The notes below the pieces were generated by a model. That model saw nothing but the letters and a program-made list of their open reading frames with translations, was not told where the DNA came from and made no database searches. Source: Sebaldella sp. S0638 (lineage in GTDB: Bacteria; Fusobacteriota; Fusobacteriia; Fusobacteriales; Leptotrichiaceae). From it: a DNA stretch of 64,000 bases. Of the stretch, positions 37,088 through 45,637 are shown piece by piece. Location of the stretch: the NCBI RefSeq assembly GCF_024158605.1, contig NZ_JAMZGM010000001.1, positions 62,001 to 126,000 of the forward strand, given 5' to 3'. A program made the translations under genes and the position numbers. Position 1 is the stretch's first letter. Each line of letters begins with the position of its first letter.

Positions 37088-39745
37088 TTACTTTAATTCT
37101 CCCCAGTTTTTACCTACATTGCCATTTGCTGCAAGTCTTACATTCTTTAATTTTATTGTATTTTCCATAATATTATCAATTTCTTTCAGATACTTATCCA
37201 CAACTTCGTTTTTCACTTCAAAGATAAGTTCATCATGTACCTGAAGCAGCATATTTATGTCTTCTTTATCCCTAAATTCCTCATAAAGCTTTACCATTAC
37301 TATTTTTATAATATTAGCTGCTGTTCCCTGAACTACAGTATTTACAGCCATTCTGTCAGCCTGTGCTTCTATATTTTTGTTTGACGAATTTATCCCGGTA
37401 ATGTATCTTCTTGTACCGTATAATGTCTCTACAAAACCATTCAGCTTTGCTTCCTGAAGTACATTATTCAAAAATGTTCTTACCTTAGGATATTCTTCAA
37501 AATATTTATTTATATATAATTTCGCATCTCCCATAGGAATTTTTAGTTCTTTTGACAGTCCGAAAGGAGTTTTCCCATATAGAATACTAAAGTTTATTAC
37601 TTTGGCTATACTTCTTTCCTCTCTGCTCACAGGCTCTTCGTCTGTTTTAAAAAACAGCTTTCTTGCTGTAAGATCATGAAGGTCTTTATTCTGCTGATAC
37701 GCCAGTATAAGAGTCCCGTCTTCCGATAATTCCGCAAGAACTCTCAGCTCGATCTGCGAATAGTCAAAAGATATAAAACTCCAGCCTTCCTGAGAAACAA
37801 AACCTCTTCTTATTTTTATTCCTTCATCAGTTTTCACGGGAATATTTTGTATATTGGGATTACTTGAAGAGAGCCTCCCTGTGGCAGTACCGTTCTGATG
37901 AAAAGTTGTGTGTATTCTGTTTTCTTTGTCTGCCAGCTTCGGAAGCGGTTCTACATATGTCGTAAGAAGCTTTGTGTAACCTCTGTATTCAAGTATTTTC
38001 TCTGCTACATCCACACCTTGTGCTGCAAGCACTTCAAGCACTTCCACATCTGTAGAATATCCTGTCTTGGTTTTCTTCACGGGATCAAGCATCATTTTCT
38101 CAAATAATATCTCTGAAAGCTGCTTAGGAGAATTAATATTAAATTCCTCACCTGCAAGCTCATATATATTTTTCTCTATTTCAACAAGATTATTTTTTAG
38201 CTCGCTTCCATATTTTTCAAAATAATCAGGGTCTATCAGTATTCCCTTTTTCTCCATATCAGCAAGAACAGGAACCAGTTTTTTCTCTATATTTTCATAA
38301 ACATTATTAAGACCTTCTGATTCCAGACGGTTTCCTAAAATGTCTCTGAGCCTTGCCATATAATAAGATCTTTTTGTAAGAAATTCCGCTTTTCTTTCTA
38401 AAGAAACTTCACTTATATTTTGTTTCTTAAACTCTACTTCATACTTTTCCAAAAGTACCTGAAACTCTGAAAAAATTATGCTTTCCAGATCCTGTGCAGC
38501 CTCTGTCCCCAGTACATACCATACAAGCATAATATCAAAGTAATCTTTATACTCAAGTCCGGCCTTAAAAAGGTCTTTTATATTATATGCATTTACAGTT
38601 TTATCCTTAAAATTTTTCAAAAAAGCAGCTCTGTCTGTAATAATTTCCGCAGGAATATAATAGTTTTTTTCCTTATTGGAAATCCCAAACCCGAGTTCAT
38701 TATCAAAAACAGTTACTTCATTACCAAGTGCCGCAATTATTTTCTCAGCCGTCTCCAATGTATCTGCTGTCTCGTACTGAAACGGAGTTTCTTCCTTTAC
38801 TTCTTCCGCAGCAGGTTTCTTTTCCTGTACCGCTGTCTGAAATAAAGTTCCCTGAAGCGGATTGGCATTCTTTCTTGCACGTTCTGCATCTTCAAGGAAT
38901 CTCTTGAATTCCATCTCTTTATACAGAGGAATGAGCTTATTCATATCTTTTTCCTCATATTTAAGCTTGTCCTTATCATACTCCACATCAAGCTCCATAT
39001 GAACTGTTGCCAGTTCTCTGCTCAAAAATGCATTTTCCTTTTCCTTTTCCAGTTTTTCTTTTCTTTTTCCTTTTATTTCATCTATATTTTCATATAAAGT
39101 CTCAAGATTTCCATATTTTGATATTAATTCAACACCGGTTTTAGGTCCTATTCCCTGTACTCCCGGAATTCCGTCGGATTTATCTCCCATAAGACCAAAA
39201 AGATCAATTACCTGATCAGGTCTTACTCCCAGATACTCCACTACATCCTGCTCTGTCTGAATGTACTTAAACTGGCTTTTACCGTCACCTTTTCCGAGAA
39301 GCGCTATATTTACGTTATCTTTTATAAGCTGCATAAGATCTTTATCTCCTGTAACAATAAATACTTCCATATTATCATCGGAAAGTTTCTTCGCAAGAGT
39401 GGCAATAACATCGTCTGCTTCATATCCGTCTACTTTATACTTAGGTATATTGTATGCATCCAGCACTTCCATAATCTTAGGAAGCTGATAAACTAGCTCT
39501 TCAGGCATATCTTCCCTGTGTGCCTTGTACTCTGTCAGTTCGGAAGTTCTTTTAAGCTCTGATCTTTTCACATCAAGACAGGCTACCAGATAATCAGGAG
39601 AAAATTCCTTTATTATCAGGTTCAGGGTATTTATAAAACCATATGTAGCTCCTGTTGCTTTCCCCTTGGAATTTCTCATTCCCATAAGGGCAAAATGTGT
39701 TCTGTACATAATGGCGCTTGTATCTAATATTACAGCTCTTGGCAT
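37088..39745 (-). CDS. polA: DNA polymerase I
   Basis: An 885-residue protein. Residues 1-290 are the 5' nuclease (IVTGDKDLMQLI, GLMGDKSDGIPGVQGIGPKT). Residues about 320-500 correspond to the 3'-5' exonuclease domain, and the last 400 are the polymerase: FISFDYSQIELRVLAEL (motif A), RSIAKVINFSILYGKTPFGL (motif B) and LLQVHDELIFEV (motif C). The exonuclease domain keeps an FDNE that resembles Exo I, but the Exo II and Exo III acidic and Tyr residues are not apparent, so proofreading is probably lost. GGAG precedes the ATG. Confidence 0.97.
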   Translation of the reverse strand: MPRAVILDTSAIMYRTHFALMGMRNSKGKATGATYGFINTLNLIIKEFSPDYLVACLDVKRSELKRTSELTEYKAHREDMPEELVYQLPKIMEVLDAYNIPKYKVDGYEADDVIATLAKKLSDDNMEVFIVTGDKDLMQLIKDNVNIALLGKGDGKSQFKYIQTEQDVVEYLGVRPDQVIDLFGLMGDKSDGIPGVQGIGPKTGVELISKYGNLETLYENIDEIKGKRKEKLEKEKENAFLSRELATVHMELDVEYDKDKLKYEEKDMNKLIPLYKEMEFKRFLEDAERARKNANPLQGTLFQTAVQEKKPAAEEVKEETPFQYETADTLETAEKIIAALGNEVTVFDNELGFGISNKEKNYYIPAEIITDRAAFLKNFKDKTVNAYNIKDLFKAGLEYKDYFDIMLVWYVLGTEAAQDLESIIFSEFQVLLEKYEVEFKKQNISEVSLERKAEFLTKRSYYMARLRDILGNRLESEGLNNVYENIEKKLVPVLADMEKKGILIDPDYFEKYGSELKNNLVEIEKNIYELAGEEFNINSPKQLSEILFEKMMLDPVKKTKTGYSTDVEVLEVLAAQGVDVAEKILEYRGYTKLLTTYVEPLPKLADKENRIHTTFHQNGTATGRLSSSNPNIQNIPVKTDEGIKIRRGFVSQEGWSFISFDYSQIELRVLAELSEDGTLILAYQQNKDLHDLTARKLFFKTDEEPVSREERSIAKVINFSILYGKTPFGLSKELKIPMGDAKLYINKYFEEYPKVRTFLNNVLQEAKLNGFVETLYGTRRYITGINSSNKNIEAQADRMAVNTVVQGTAANIIKIVMVKLYEEFRDKEDINMLLQVHDELIFEVKNEVVDKYLKEIDNIMENTIKLKNVRLAANGNVGKNWGELK

Positions 39746-39935: not shown

Positions 39936-40712
39936 TTAATATAACTTCCAGTCCCCTACTCTTTTCGAATTTTCATATTTACCTTCTTCTACTAAAGTCA
40001 GACTTTCATCATATACTTTCATATATCCCGTTCCGTTTTTAAAAATTGTTTTATCTATAATTTTATAATTTTTATCTCTTACTTCCTGTACTCCGTCTGC
40101 TATAAACATATTTTTAGATGTATTATACACATAATTATTCATAAAGGAACCATTATCAAAATAATTATATACTGTAAGTCTCTTATCCAGCATAATATAA
40201 AGAAGTTCCACATTTTCATTTGCCAGAATATCAGAAATATATTTATTTATAGAAGCATATGTGTTTCCGTTTATTATATATAAATTATCAGCTTTAATAA
40301 TGTCGTTATATACAGTATAAGAACTGCACCGTCCTCCTGTGGAATAACGTATCTGCCCCACTGCCGCAAGACTTTTATAATTATTTTTATTTATCTGATA
40401 ATTTTTATAATAAAGTCTTCCACCTGTTACAAAATACTCGTTATTTTCAGGTTTATAATCCTCATCTCCGGGCTTATTCAGTTTTAACTCATTATCAATT
40501 CTATAAAAATTCTCAATATCATATTTTTTCTTCAAAATTTTTGGTTTATCCACATCAGTATCTACTTTTTTATTATCATAATATATACCGTCTGATTTTA
40601 TTACCACACCTTCAGGTCTCGGACGCTCCCATGTTTCCACACAGGCTATTGACGATGCACTGAATGTTCCTGCCGACAATAACGTCATAAACATTAATAT
40701 CACCTTTTTCAC
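39936..40712 (-). CDS. Exported protein with a C-terminal YwqK/MORN-like motif
   Basis: About 258 residues. A signal peptide (KKVILMFMTLLSAGTFSASS) leads a Tyr/Asn-rich, beta-strand-rich body with repeats such as GIYYDNKKVDTD and GRLYYKNYQINKN, close to DKNYY-type repeats. The end, EGKYENSKRVGDWKLY, is one YwqK/MORN unit. Start: GTG at 40712 with GAGGTGA 8 bases upstream; the frame opens at 40748. Periplasmic or surface location is inferred; function unknown. Confidence 0.65.
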   Translation of the reverse strand: MKKVILMFMTLLSAGTFSASSIACVETWERPRPEGVVIKSDGIYYDNKKVDTDVDKPKILKKKYDIENFYRIDNELKLNKPGDEDYKPENNEYFVTGGRLYYKNYQINKNNYKSLAAVGQIRYSTGGRCSSYTVYNDIIKADNLYIINGNTYASINKYISDILANENVELLYIMLDKRLTVYNYFDNGSFMNNYVYNTSKNMFIADGVQEVRDKNYKIIDKTIFKNGTGYMKVYDESLTLVEEGKYENSKRVGDWKLY

Positions 40713-40879
40713 GATAAAATCACCTCTTATCATATTATTTTGTAACACCTAAATACATTTTTATTATAATACTTTAACATATAATTTACAAGAAATAATC
40801 ATTATACTTCCATATAAAAACAATAGTTTTTACACTGGATTTTCTATGATATAAAAAATTAACCCTTGTTGATTTTATA

Positions 40880-40933: not shown

Positions 40934-42589
40934 TTAAAACAGCGTAGTTTTTCTCTGATCCTCATGTCCAAGCCAGTTTACCAGCCCTTTTGTTTTTTCA
41001 AAAGATTTGCTGTTCACAAAATCATTTTCATTCTCAGGATTTCCCCATGCAGAAGGATGATTATTTTTTATTATTTCTCCGCTTTTTATACTCTTCTCAA
41101 ATATCTGAACATCTTTTCCCCATAAAAAATATACTATATTTTTATTTCTTTCTGATATGAATTCCATAAGTTCCTGTGTAAAAGGTATCCAAAACTTACT
41201 ATGGTCTGCTGCTTTTGTTTCGGATATTGTCAAAGCTGTATTCAAAAGAAGAACTCCGTTTTTTTCCCAGTATTTAAATAATCTGTCAGGAGGAAGAATG
41301 TTAAAATTTCTCTTTTCTATATCTTCCCTTATAAAATTCAGATCTTTTGAAGTTCCCATATACGTTTTGTAAAGTAATTTCAGAATATTTCTAAGAGTAT
41401 TATTTACCTCAGGATCCATCCATGAATTTTTCTCCATCTCAAATGCAAGCCCTGTGGCAGTATTCCCCTGTGTATAAGGTTCTTTTCCCGGCATGCATAC
41501 TTTTTGTTCTGAAAGCGGCTCTGAAAATACTCTGAATATGAGATTTTCTTTCGGGCTGTAAGGTATATTTTTCATTTTCAGTTCTTTTATAAAGTTTCTC
41601 ACAGACTCCACTCTTTCATATGTAAAAAAATCAAAATATTCATCGTTTATTTTGTATTCTTCCATAAAATTCCGTCTTTCAATATCTGTATCTTCATCTC
41701 TAAGTATTCTCAGACTTAATATATTATAATCCATGCCAAGTGTAAATATTCTCTCGTCATTAGCCTTTATTTTCAGAATATCGCCTTTATGAAGACTGAG
41801 TTTTTTCTCTATTCTGAATTTCTCGTCTGTTATCAGGAGTTCTCCCGATGAAAGCCCCAAAAGGTAATTTTCCTTGGTTTTTTCTATATAAGATATGCGA
41901 TAATCGCTTACTTTTACGGAATTATAAAGTTCTTTAGTGATTACATCCCATATTTCCACTTCTCCGTCTTCTGTTCCTGCTATATACTGAAGAGCAGATA
42001 TACTGGAATATATATGGTTTTTTACTGTTTTTATATTAAAAATTTCTTCGAGCTTTTCATCGAAAATACTTATGGTATTTTCCTGTGAATGAAGGGCGCG
42101 ATATTTTACTACTATATTTTCACCGTTAATATAAATTTTATACTTTCCCCTGTTTTCATTCTTTTCATTAATAACAGCCTTTTTTATTGTTCTTTCTGAA
42201 TTAGGATTATATGAGTGAAGAATATTATCCATCAGATATATTATCTTTCCGTTTGTGGTGAAATTCACATAATCAGGTGTTCTTTCCATTGAAAATACTG
42301 TTTTGGAAGTTTTGTGTTTTCTGTCATAATATTTATAAATATCCCCGTTCATAGTCAGAACAAAAAAGGAATTCGATACAAACAGCTGATTTTCTTCCTT
42401 TATAAATTTTACTGCTTCTAAATTTTTTAATTTCCCGCCGAGCTCTGTTACATTTACATTTCCCTCAAAATCCGGCGATACAAAATACAGCTTTTTCCCC
42501 ACAGCGACCAAATCTTTATTAACAGGATCCAGATCAAAATCTTTCAGCCCGTTTTCGTTTATTAACTTTTTATCCAATATTACTTTCAT
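40934..42589 (-). CDS. WD40-like beta-propeller fused to a family-1 uracil-DNA-glycosylase-like domain
   Basis: A 551-residue protein. Residues 1-300 are repeated four-strand units of propeller type (for example TEDGEVEIWDVITKELYNSV and SSGELLITDEKF). Residues 320-545 follow the family-1 UDG order: GKEPYTQGNTATGLAFEM (368-385) aligns with GQDPYH...HGLAFS, VLLLNTALTISETKAADH (446-463) carries the Asn of LLLN, YFLWG (487-491) follows, and NHPSAW (510-515) holds the catalytic His. The water-activating Asp of GQDPY is Glu here and Gln-to-Lys precedes it. Uracil removal is therefore plausible but unproven; binding or altered specificity is equally possible. I know of no standard fusion like this. 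Confidence 0.8.
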   Translation of the reverse strand: MKVILDKKLINENGLKDFDLDPVNKDLVAVGKKLYFVSPDFEGNVNVTELGGKLKNLEAVKFIKEENQLFVSNSFFVLTMNGDIYKYYDRKHKTSKTVFSMERTPDYVNFTTNGKIIYLMDNILHSYNPNSERTIKKAVINEKNENRGKYKIYINGENIVVKYRALHSQENTISIFDEKLEEIFNIKTVKNHIYSSISALQYIAGTEDGEVEIWDVITKELYNSVKVSDYRISYIEKTKENYLLGLSSGELLITDEKFRIEKKLSLHKGDILKIKANDERIFTLGMDYNILSLRILRDEDTDIERRNFMEEYKINDEYFDFFTYERVESVRNFIKELKMKNIPYSPKENLIFRVFSEPLSEQKVCMPGKEPYTQGNTATGLAFEMEKNSWMDPEVNNTLRNILKLLYKTYMGTSKDLNFIREDIEKRNFNILPPDRLFKYWEKNGVLLLNTALTISETKAADHSKFWIPFTQELMEFISERNKNIVYFLWGKDVQIFEKSIKSGEIIKNNHPSAWGNPENENDFVNSKSFEKTKGLVNWLGHEDQRKTTLF

Positions 42590-44812: not shown

Positions 44813-45637
44813 TTAATATTGCAAAATACCATTGTTGTAATTTTCTGTTGCTACAATATTTCCACTTTTATCAAAGTATTTCCATAGACCCTCTTTTTTT
44901 CTTAGCTTATAATTTCCTTCAAATTTCAGTTCTCCCGAACTGAAATAAGAAATAACACTTCCTTCTCCGTTACTGTACTTCCCTTTATAAAAAACATTCC
45001 CGTTTTCATAATAAGCTATATCATCTCCCGATATTTCACCGTTGGAATATTCAGTTTCCAGTTTCTTTATTCCTGAATTATACCATGTTGTCCATCTTCC
45101 GTCTTTCTGGTTGCGTTCATAGCTTCCTTCTGACTCTTTCTGCCCGTTGGTATAATAAGTATTCCACTTACCTTCTCTTCTGTTATTTATATAATTACCC
45201 TTTATCTTTTCCTGCCCTGTATTAGAATACAACTCCACATACTCGCCGTCCAGCCTCCCGTCTTTGTATGTTTCCTGTATCCATCTTCTGCCGCTGTCAT
45301 TATAGGTATACCATTTCCCATTTTTCTTTCCGTTTACATAACTTCCCTCTGATAATTTCAATCCATTTTCATAATACTCTGTAAAATTTCCTGCAAGCTC
45401 ACCGTTTTTCAGAGAAAAAGTAATACTTCTACCGGAATTTGAAATAAAATTAAAATCCCCGGTATCAATAACTTCATATCTTCCGTTATCTGCATCTTTA
45501 ACCTTTATATTCTCATAAAAAATCGGATTAATTAAATAGACTCTGTCATTACTTACCTGATAATCTGAATGCAGCATATCCGCGAAAGCAAATACAGCTG
45601 CGAATAATGACAAAAATAAGATCATGAATCTTCTCAT
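44813..45637 (-). CDS. Exported YwqK/MORN-repeat protein
   Basis: A 274-residue protein with a signal peptide (residues 1-19, AVFAFA) and about eight repeats of the form [E/K]G-x-Y-x-N-G-x-(K/R)-x-G-x-W-x-x-Y (for example EGSYVNGKKNGKW, KGNYINNRREGKW, EGSYERNQKDGRW). The sheet-like repeats resemble MORN and YwqK proteins. Databases call some of these antitoxins, but no toxin partner is nearby. Outer surface or periplasmic location is likely. A consensus promoter lies at 45667-45695. Confidence 0.78.
   Translation of the reverse strand: MRRFMILFLSLFAAVFAFADMLHSDYQVSNDRVYLINPIFYENIKVKDADNGRYEVIDTGDFNFISNSGRSITFSLKNGELAGNFTEYYENGLKLSEGSYVNGKKNGKWYTYNDSGRRWIQETYKDGRLDGEYVELYSNTGQEKIKGNYINNRREGKWNTYYTNGQKESEGSYERNQKDGRWTTWYNSGIKKLETEYSNGEISGDDIAYYENGNVFYKGKYSNGEGSVISYFSSGELKFEGNYKLRKKEGLWKYFDKSGNIVATENYNNGILQY

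Follow-up and report, generated by a model that had tools for sequence, protein, structure and literature searches.

The window, as the whole 64,000-nucleotide stretch analysed here is called, carries a gene that joins a WD40-type beta-propeller to a domain resembling the family-1 uracil-DNA glycosylases (UDGs, of which Ung is the type). The gene, its domains and active-site motifs, and the two genes beside it are the following.

40934..42589, minus strand: propeller-UDG fusion gene of Sebaldella sp. S0638, 551 aa
41699..42589, minus strand: seven-bladed WD40-type beta-propeller, residues 1-297
40955..41683, minus strand: divergent family-1-like UDG domain, residues 303-545 (TIGR00628, PF03167, stand-alone homologues, fold match)
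41474..41488, minus strand: water-activating loop GKEPY, residues 368-372, placed by alignment, with codon GAA for Glu370
41228..41251, minus strand: uracil-recognition motif LLLNTALT, residues 447-454, with Asn450, placed by alignment
41045..41062, minus strand: NHPSAW, residues 510-515, with His511 kept and Trp515 in place of the intercalating Leu, placed by alignment
39936..40748, minus strand: neighbour, a 270-aa protein that matches no Pfam family and lies between the fusion and polA
37088..39745, minus strand: neighbour, an 885-aa protein that we take to be DNA polymerase I (polA), named by eye from its sequence

The preliminary description saw a propeller followed by a UDG-like domain, and both are there in that order; neither of the outcomes it had named as fatal, a C-terminal part with no UDG match or a protein with neither fold, came about. 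The N-terminal half is a WD40-type propeller of seven four-stranded blades, with 10-14% identity to the listed solved WD40-type propellers. No Pfam WD40 model exceeds its cut-off (the best, PF24807, reaches 36.7 bits against 200) and a search of solved structures with one propeller-only protein gave no convincing match. VIA-align was applied to residues 1-297; for the C-terminal half, the UDG fold therefore comes from sequence profiles (TIGR00628, E 3.2e-27; PF03167, 25.7 bits) and a separate fold match. The score for TIGR00628 is 91-96 bits (95.8 for the C-terminal part of the window's protein), below the curated ung cut-off of 185.75; below it, too, are 32 matches of the divergent branch to which, as described below, the domain belongs.

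Much of family-1 Ung is nevertheless recognisable: the fold, the order of motifs, the Asn of LLLN (Asn450), the catalytic His of the HP motif (His511), the Phe of GLAF and, in the Asp-type members, DPY. The Tyr of DPY, the Asn of LLLN and the Phe of GLAF, which set uracil specificity, are all unchanged in the window's protein. In contrast, where family 1 has GQDPY the window's protein has GKEPY; alignment puts Glu370 at the position of Asp64 of E. coli Ung and the codon, GAA, bears out the Asp-to-Glu change beside an intact Asn450 and His511 that had been read from the sequence at the outset. Also different are some 20 extra residues before LLLN, the N-terminal propeller, the absence of a recognisable Pro-rich loop and the absence of the HPSPLSA intercalation loop (as that loop is defined in the portions consulted of PMC1936997 and PMC5538708): HPSPLS with its Leu is HPSAW here and mostly HPAIC in the divergent branch. 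The signature of the branch, taken from an alignment of 15 of 16 stand-alone proteins with 7 of 16 fusion domains, is xDPY[P/F]Q, ATGLAFEV, the ~20 extra residues before LLLN, and NHPAICGN. Replacement of the Gln before the Asp (by Met, Lys or Ala) runs through the branch, Asp-keeping members included, with L047, one of the 16 stand-alone proteins, as sole exception. The Gln-to-Lys change remarked on earlier is thus real, but as a trait of the branch and not as a peculiarity of the window's protein. The Asp itself is kept in all 16 aligned stand-alone proteins and in eight of the 16 fusions; the other eight fusions have Glu.

The stand-alone proteins are direct relatives, with the same signature and without a propeller. 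A phylum-wide search of 98 genomes found them, ~240 aa long and 37-45% identical to the UDG half, in codes g18, g19, g20, g24, g25, f3, f4 and f6. An alignment query returned, besides 16 fusion loci, named records from Psychrilyobacter, Ilyobacter, Propionigenium, Streptobacillus, Sebaldella and Aneurinibacillus, among others, and matched a Peptostreptococcaceae MAG and a Clostridia MAG, the latter grouping with canonical Ungs in the tree. The first 20 of 132 plasmid matches include pILYOP01 of Ilyobacter polytropus, Haliovirga, and Bacillota plasmids of 0.3-0.9 Mb (the Bacillota carriers among these being Aneurinibacillus, Virgibacillus, Alkaliphilus, Rossellomorea and Pontibacillus). The plasmid records already annotate this branch as uracil-DNA glycosylase, and both folds of the fusion are known. 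Seven of the divergent UDGs (L050, L042 and L091-L095) lie on plasmids or second replicons of 0.3-0.96 Mb in Fusobacteriota and Bacillota, which may reflect no more than the collection searched. Phage relatives exist as well, and the profile of PHROG 12143 matches the UDG half (E 2.2e-31), but its members are phage proteins and their listed function is unknown.

In a UDG tree of 62 rows (14 of the 16 stand-alone proteins, L037 and L043 being left out and the fragment G094 never used; canonical Ungs comprising 20 from the phylum and one from Klebsiella), the 16 fusion domains form one clade (support 87/81) within a Fusobacteriota branch (96/87) of stand-alone UDGs. That branch joins a Bacillota branch (100/97), with two viral members of PHROG 12143 adjoining; another member, from a Flavobacterium phage, lies nearer the canonical Ungs, and three rows have long branches. 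Among 65 genomes outside the window's family, 43 have a canonical Ung above the TIGR00628 cut-off, 17 have a divergent UDG (which in G094 is no more than a fragment at the end of a contig), no genome has an intact copy of each and five have neither (four of these are 67-78% complete and one is 0.8 Mb). The either-or distribution gives a Fisher probability of 1.4e-11, which ignores shared descent. Since no genome holds both intact, the divergent UDG is probably a working Ung outside the family, and the distribution suggests that it does Ung's job in the genomes that hold it. The Psychrilyobacter-type genome G088, which holds a stand-alone divergent UDG, also carries pieces of a canonical Ung (C2:64865-65258; profile positions 2-98 and 179-209) that fall below the cut-off and look broken.

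Within the family the fusion is a fixed architecture. Searching 33 family genomes, the window's own included, for the domain pair found the full fusion in 16, the propeller only in 14 (13 of genus code g6 and one of g3, the propeller of G007 being divided between two frames) and neither in three; the reading frame is open in all 16 fusions. A look-up of the full protein in genome contigs gave 28 pattern matches and no confirmed relative. In the propeller tree, which like the independent-pairs test below used 26 of the 30 propeller loci (L023, L028, L029 and L034 left out), the propeller-only genomes are nested within the fusion-bearing group, adjoining G018 (support 92/82), so that the simplest reading is loss of the UDG half after fusion. 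A UDG remnant near the propeller was sought in 19 stretches from propeller-only genomes and none was found (best E 0.14). All 14 propeller-only genomes have a canonical Ung. One further alignment set comprised the 16 fusions, 10 of the 14 propeller-only proteins and 12 of the 16 stand-alone proteins. Spread of the fusion by plasmid or phage was considered and rejected: no homologue of the propeller was found in the plasmid and phage collections searched, and the UDG tree roughly tracks the genus codes.

The window's genome has a normal Ung elsewhere, the other thing that had been proposed for checking: on contig C50 (L101:1173-3200, plus strand), a canonical Ung (GQDPYHG; TIGR00628, 266.6 bits) is followed by WG repeats (PF14903, E 3.9e-41, five stretches), a second fusion in this genome and unrelated to the propeller-UDG one, in a frame that is open for 1085 aa and extends beyond the stretch examined. 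Other UDG-superfamily proteins of ~180-190 aa are widespread in the family, so that "only Ung" here means the only family-1-like one. The window's genome encodes one of 185 aa on contig C34 (L002:1414-1971, plus strand; PF03167, 60 bits); it is without the GEAPG motif expected of a family-4 enzyme, and it may be inactive.

The fusion's catalytic acid tends to vary with the company it keeps. In the presence of a canonical Ung, G000, G026, G022, G018, G003, G001 and G028 all have Glu and G027 has Asp; in its absence, G004, G020, G021 and G029-G032 have Asp and G024 has Glu. Asp is thus found in seven of eight fusion genomes without a canonical Ung against one of eight with one (Fisher 0.010), or, in the 13 of 16 genomes that are at least 90% complete, in six of six against one of seven (Fisher 0.0047; left out are G003, with Glu and a canonical Ung, G004, with Asp and none, and G024, with Glu and none). 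The association is not significant once shared descent is taken into account (independent pairs: two for, none against, one undecided; p 0.5), and loss of the Asp beside a canonical Ung is accordingly a pattern with three supported contrasts, not a proof. Single members depart further: in G024, an 87%-complete genome in which no canonical Ung was found, the loop reads REA--Q and the following Pro-Tyr is absent; G021, in which none was found either, keeps the Asp, but its catalytic Asn is replaced by Ser; in G022, Ser stands at the positions of both Asn and His. Among the fusions, Glu is a derived state that has arisen repeatedly: parsimony on the propeller tree counts at least four changes of the Asp if regain is free, and a loss-only count made by eye on the same tree, with its four open forks, gives about six. 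The family's canonical Ungs occupy at least three to four places in the UDG tree (those of g1 beside Klebsiella and the Clostridia MAG, those of g10 close to the base, that of g2 within g15, and all others together in a single group); repeated acquisition is likely, and loss and long branches could contribute.

What a Glu at this position might do can be gauged from two comparisons. In family 1 the Asp positions or activates the water, according to the sections consulted of PMC5387724; as reported there, the family-4 mutants G42E and G42D are relatively more active than other changes of G42, and E41G-G42E is inactive. The tests of Glu at the matching place found in that source are in the family-4 background only, and a D64E or D145E mutant of Ung was not found in the open-licence PMC papers searched. 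The vaccinia D4 protein, as presented in the part consulted of PMC1936997, resembles the window's protein in its altered loop (xDPYP; GIDPYP in D4), in having no Pro-rich loop and in having no intercalating Leu, and it is uracil-specific, with a role in replication that is independent of catalysis. In contrast, D4 keeps its Asp and binds a partner, A20, where the window's protein has a fused propeller; sequence similarity between the two is weak (E 0.65-0.84). Taken together, D4 and the family-4 Glu mutants lead us to expect that the window's protein is a slow or non-turning-over UDG, with the canonical Ung doing the bulk of repair.

We favour, at a probability of about 0.6, a reading in which the fusion is a propeller-tethered Ung whose catalysis, in genomes with a second Ung, has become weaker or been retuned, its UDG domain remaining under purifying selection. 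The divergent family-1 branch, resident Ung of part of the Fusobacteriota, would be the source of the C-terminal half, joined once to a WD40-type propeller in the ancestor of the window's family. The propeller most likely binds a protein partner and would thereby place or tether the glycosylase. As a genome's only family-1 Ung, the fusion mostly has its Asp-Asn-His set intact and probably excises uracil. In genomes that, like the window's, have a canonical Ung as well, the acid that activates the water has changed repeatedly to Glu; there the domain is probably a glycosylase that works slowly or has been retuned, or else a module binding uracil or abasic sites, retained by selection. In the 14 genomes in which the UDG half is gone beside a canonical Ung, it is the propeller that stays. 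The analysis establishes the architecture, its distribution, the tree, the substitutions and the purifying selection, and from these the catalytic state, the role of the propeller and which change led to which are inferred. As far as the sequence goes, the Glu form is equally compatible with weak activity, with activity on another base and with binding without catalysis. Open-licence PMC papers, searched by title and start of abstract, with subscription papers outside, gave no account of the fusion, its fixation, the either-or distribution or the repeated replacement of Asp by Glu.

A possible, if doubtful, alternative is that the Glu-type domain is simply decaying, redundant beside a canonical Ung in a protein of which only the propeller matters, with Glu as a tolerated first step to loss. 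The nesting of propeller-only genomes among fusion-bearing ones, the want of any UDG remnant in the former and the further active-site damage in G022 and G024 all suit it. Between the window's genome and G026, the two closest, dN/dS for the UDG half is 0.112 (bootstrap 0.064-0.174), above that of the propeller (0.076; bootstrap 0.046-0.119), the polA neighbour (0.041) and the canonical Ung of C51 (0.049), as decay would have it; but 0.112 is far below 1 and every fusion has kept its frame open. Constraint on the Glu-type domain thus persists, perhaps at a somewhat lower level. Faster evolution of the UDG half in Glu than in Asp lineages is a trend only, not significant (terminal-branch ratio 1.40 vs 1.02; Mann-Whitney p 0.19), on the full-length tree used for this comparison, in which supports among G018, G003, G021 and G022 are weak (27-63). 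The outcome at the catalytic position also speaks against decay: each of the eight fusions that lack the Asp has Glu there, although two of the eight single-base amino-acid changes of GAT give Glu, so that the rough odds of an all-Glu result run from 0.004 with four events to 0.0002 with six (ignoring mutation bias and the greater ease of conservative changes).

The surroundings of the gene bear on another alternative, that the UDG fold has turned into a component of a replication or repair complex and no longer catalyses, the propeller being its docking platform. Twelve of the 16 fusion loci have ligA, polA or a gene for a RecB-like helicase close by. In all three fusion-bearing g1 genomes polA is next or next but one to the fusion (the intervening 270-aa protein is present in G026 and absent from that place in G024); ligA is one or two genes away in eight loci (g2, g8, g10, g11), with guaB between in seven (both identified from profile matches in L077 and, at the other loci, from homology); in G004, genes for a PD-(D/E)XK nuclease and a RecB-like helicase follow the fusion. 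At the remaining four (L072, L074, L075 and L076) no repair gene was identified among the neighbours, a minority of which were scanned. Also near the window's fusion (44813-45637, minus strand) is the gene for a secreted-looking 274-aa protein with YENG-type (MORN-like) repeats, read by eye. Six of the 16 fusions (L005-L008, L010 and L012) end in -LF (TTLF, KILF, GRLF, FRLF, NTLF), a tail reminiscent of a sliding-clamp motif and possibly a clamp- or partner-binding element; ten do not. The neighbourhood, however, differs from genus to genus and is weak evidence, the -LF end is found on one Asp-type fusion and missing from three Glu-type ones, and the Asp-type fusions keep a full catalytic set. 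Even with D4 as precedent for a replication role independent of catalysis and for doing without the same family-1 traits (PMC1936997, portions consulted), we consider this explanation improbable.

That Glu brings a new substrate preference, for another deaminated base or DNA context, as the preliminary description had ventured, would suit the repeated change to one and the same residue, the retention of Asn450, His511 and the pocket Phe and Tyr, and the purifying selection, but is very improbable, the Glu being real but derived, absent from eight of 16 fusions and mostly found with a canonical Ung (which would fit redundancy better than an ancient new preference), the uracil-specificity residues of family 1 being unchanged, and, in the sections consulted of PMC5387724, family-1 enzymes being narrow in substrate and E41G-G42E being inactive even though G42E is relatively active.

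A bolder version of the propeller-tethered Ung, unlikely as it stands, is that the arrival or presence of a second Ung has repeatedly made a new class of protein: an acid-retaining UDG fold that would bind uracil or abasic sites, turning over slowly or not at all, and report them, or hand them over, through its propeller, the UDG half being lost later where only the propeller's partner function was needed.

Few repair enzymes are as well studied as Ung, and its catalytic Asp features in textbooks. In the window's family, sister proteins with Asp or with Glu, from genomes with or without a second Ung, form a natural series together with relatives that have lost the domain, and this series would allow one to test directly how a catalytic residue comes to be given up and whether the UDG fold then keeps a binding role. 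The divergent branch to which they belong is missed by the curated ung cut-off, and genomes apparently without an Ung may therefore have one.
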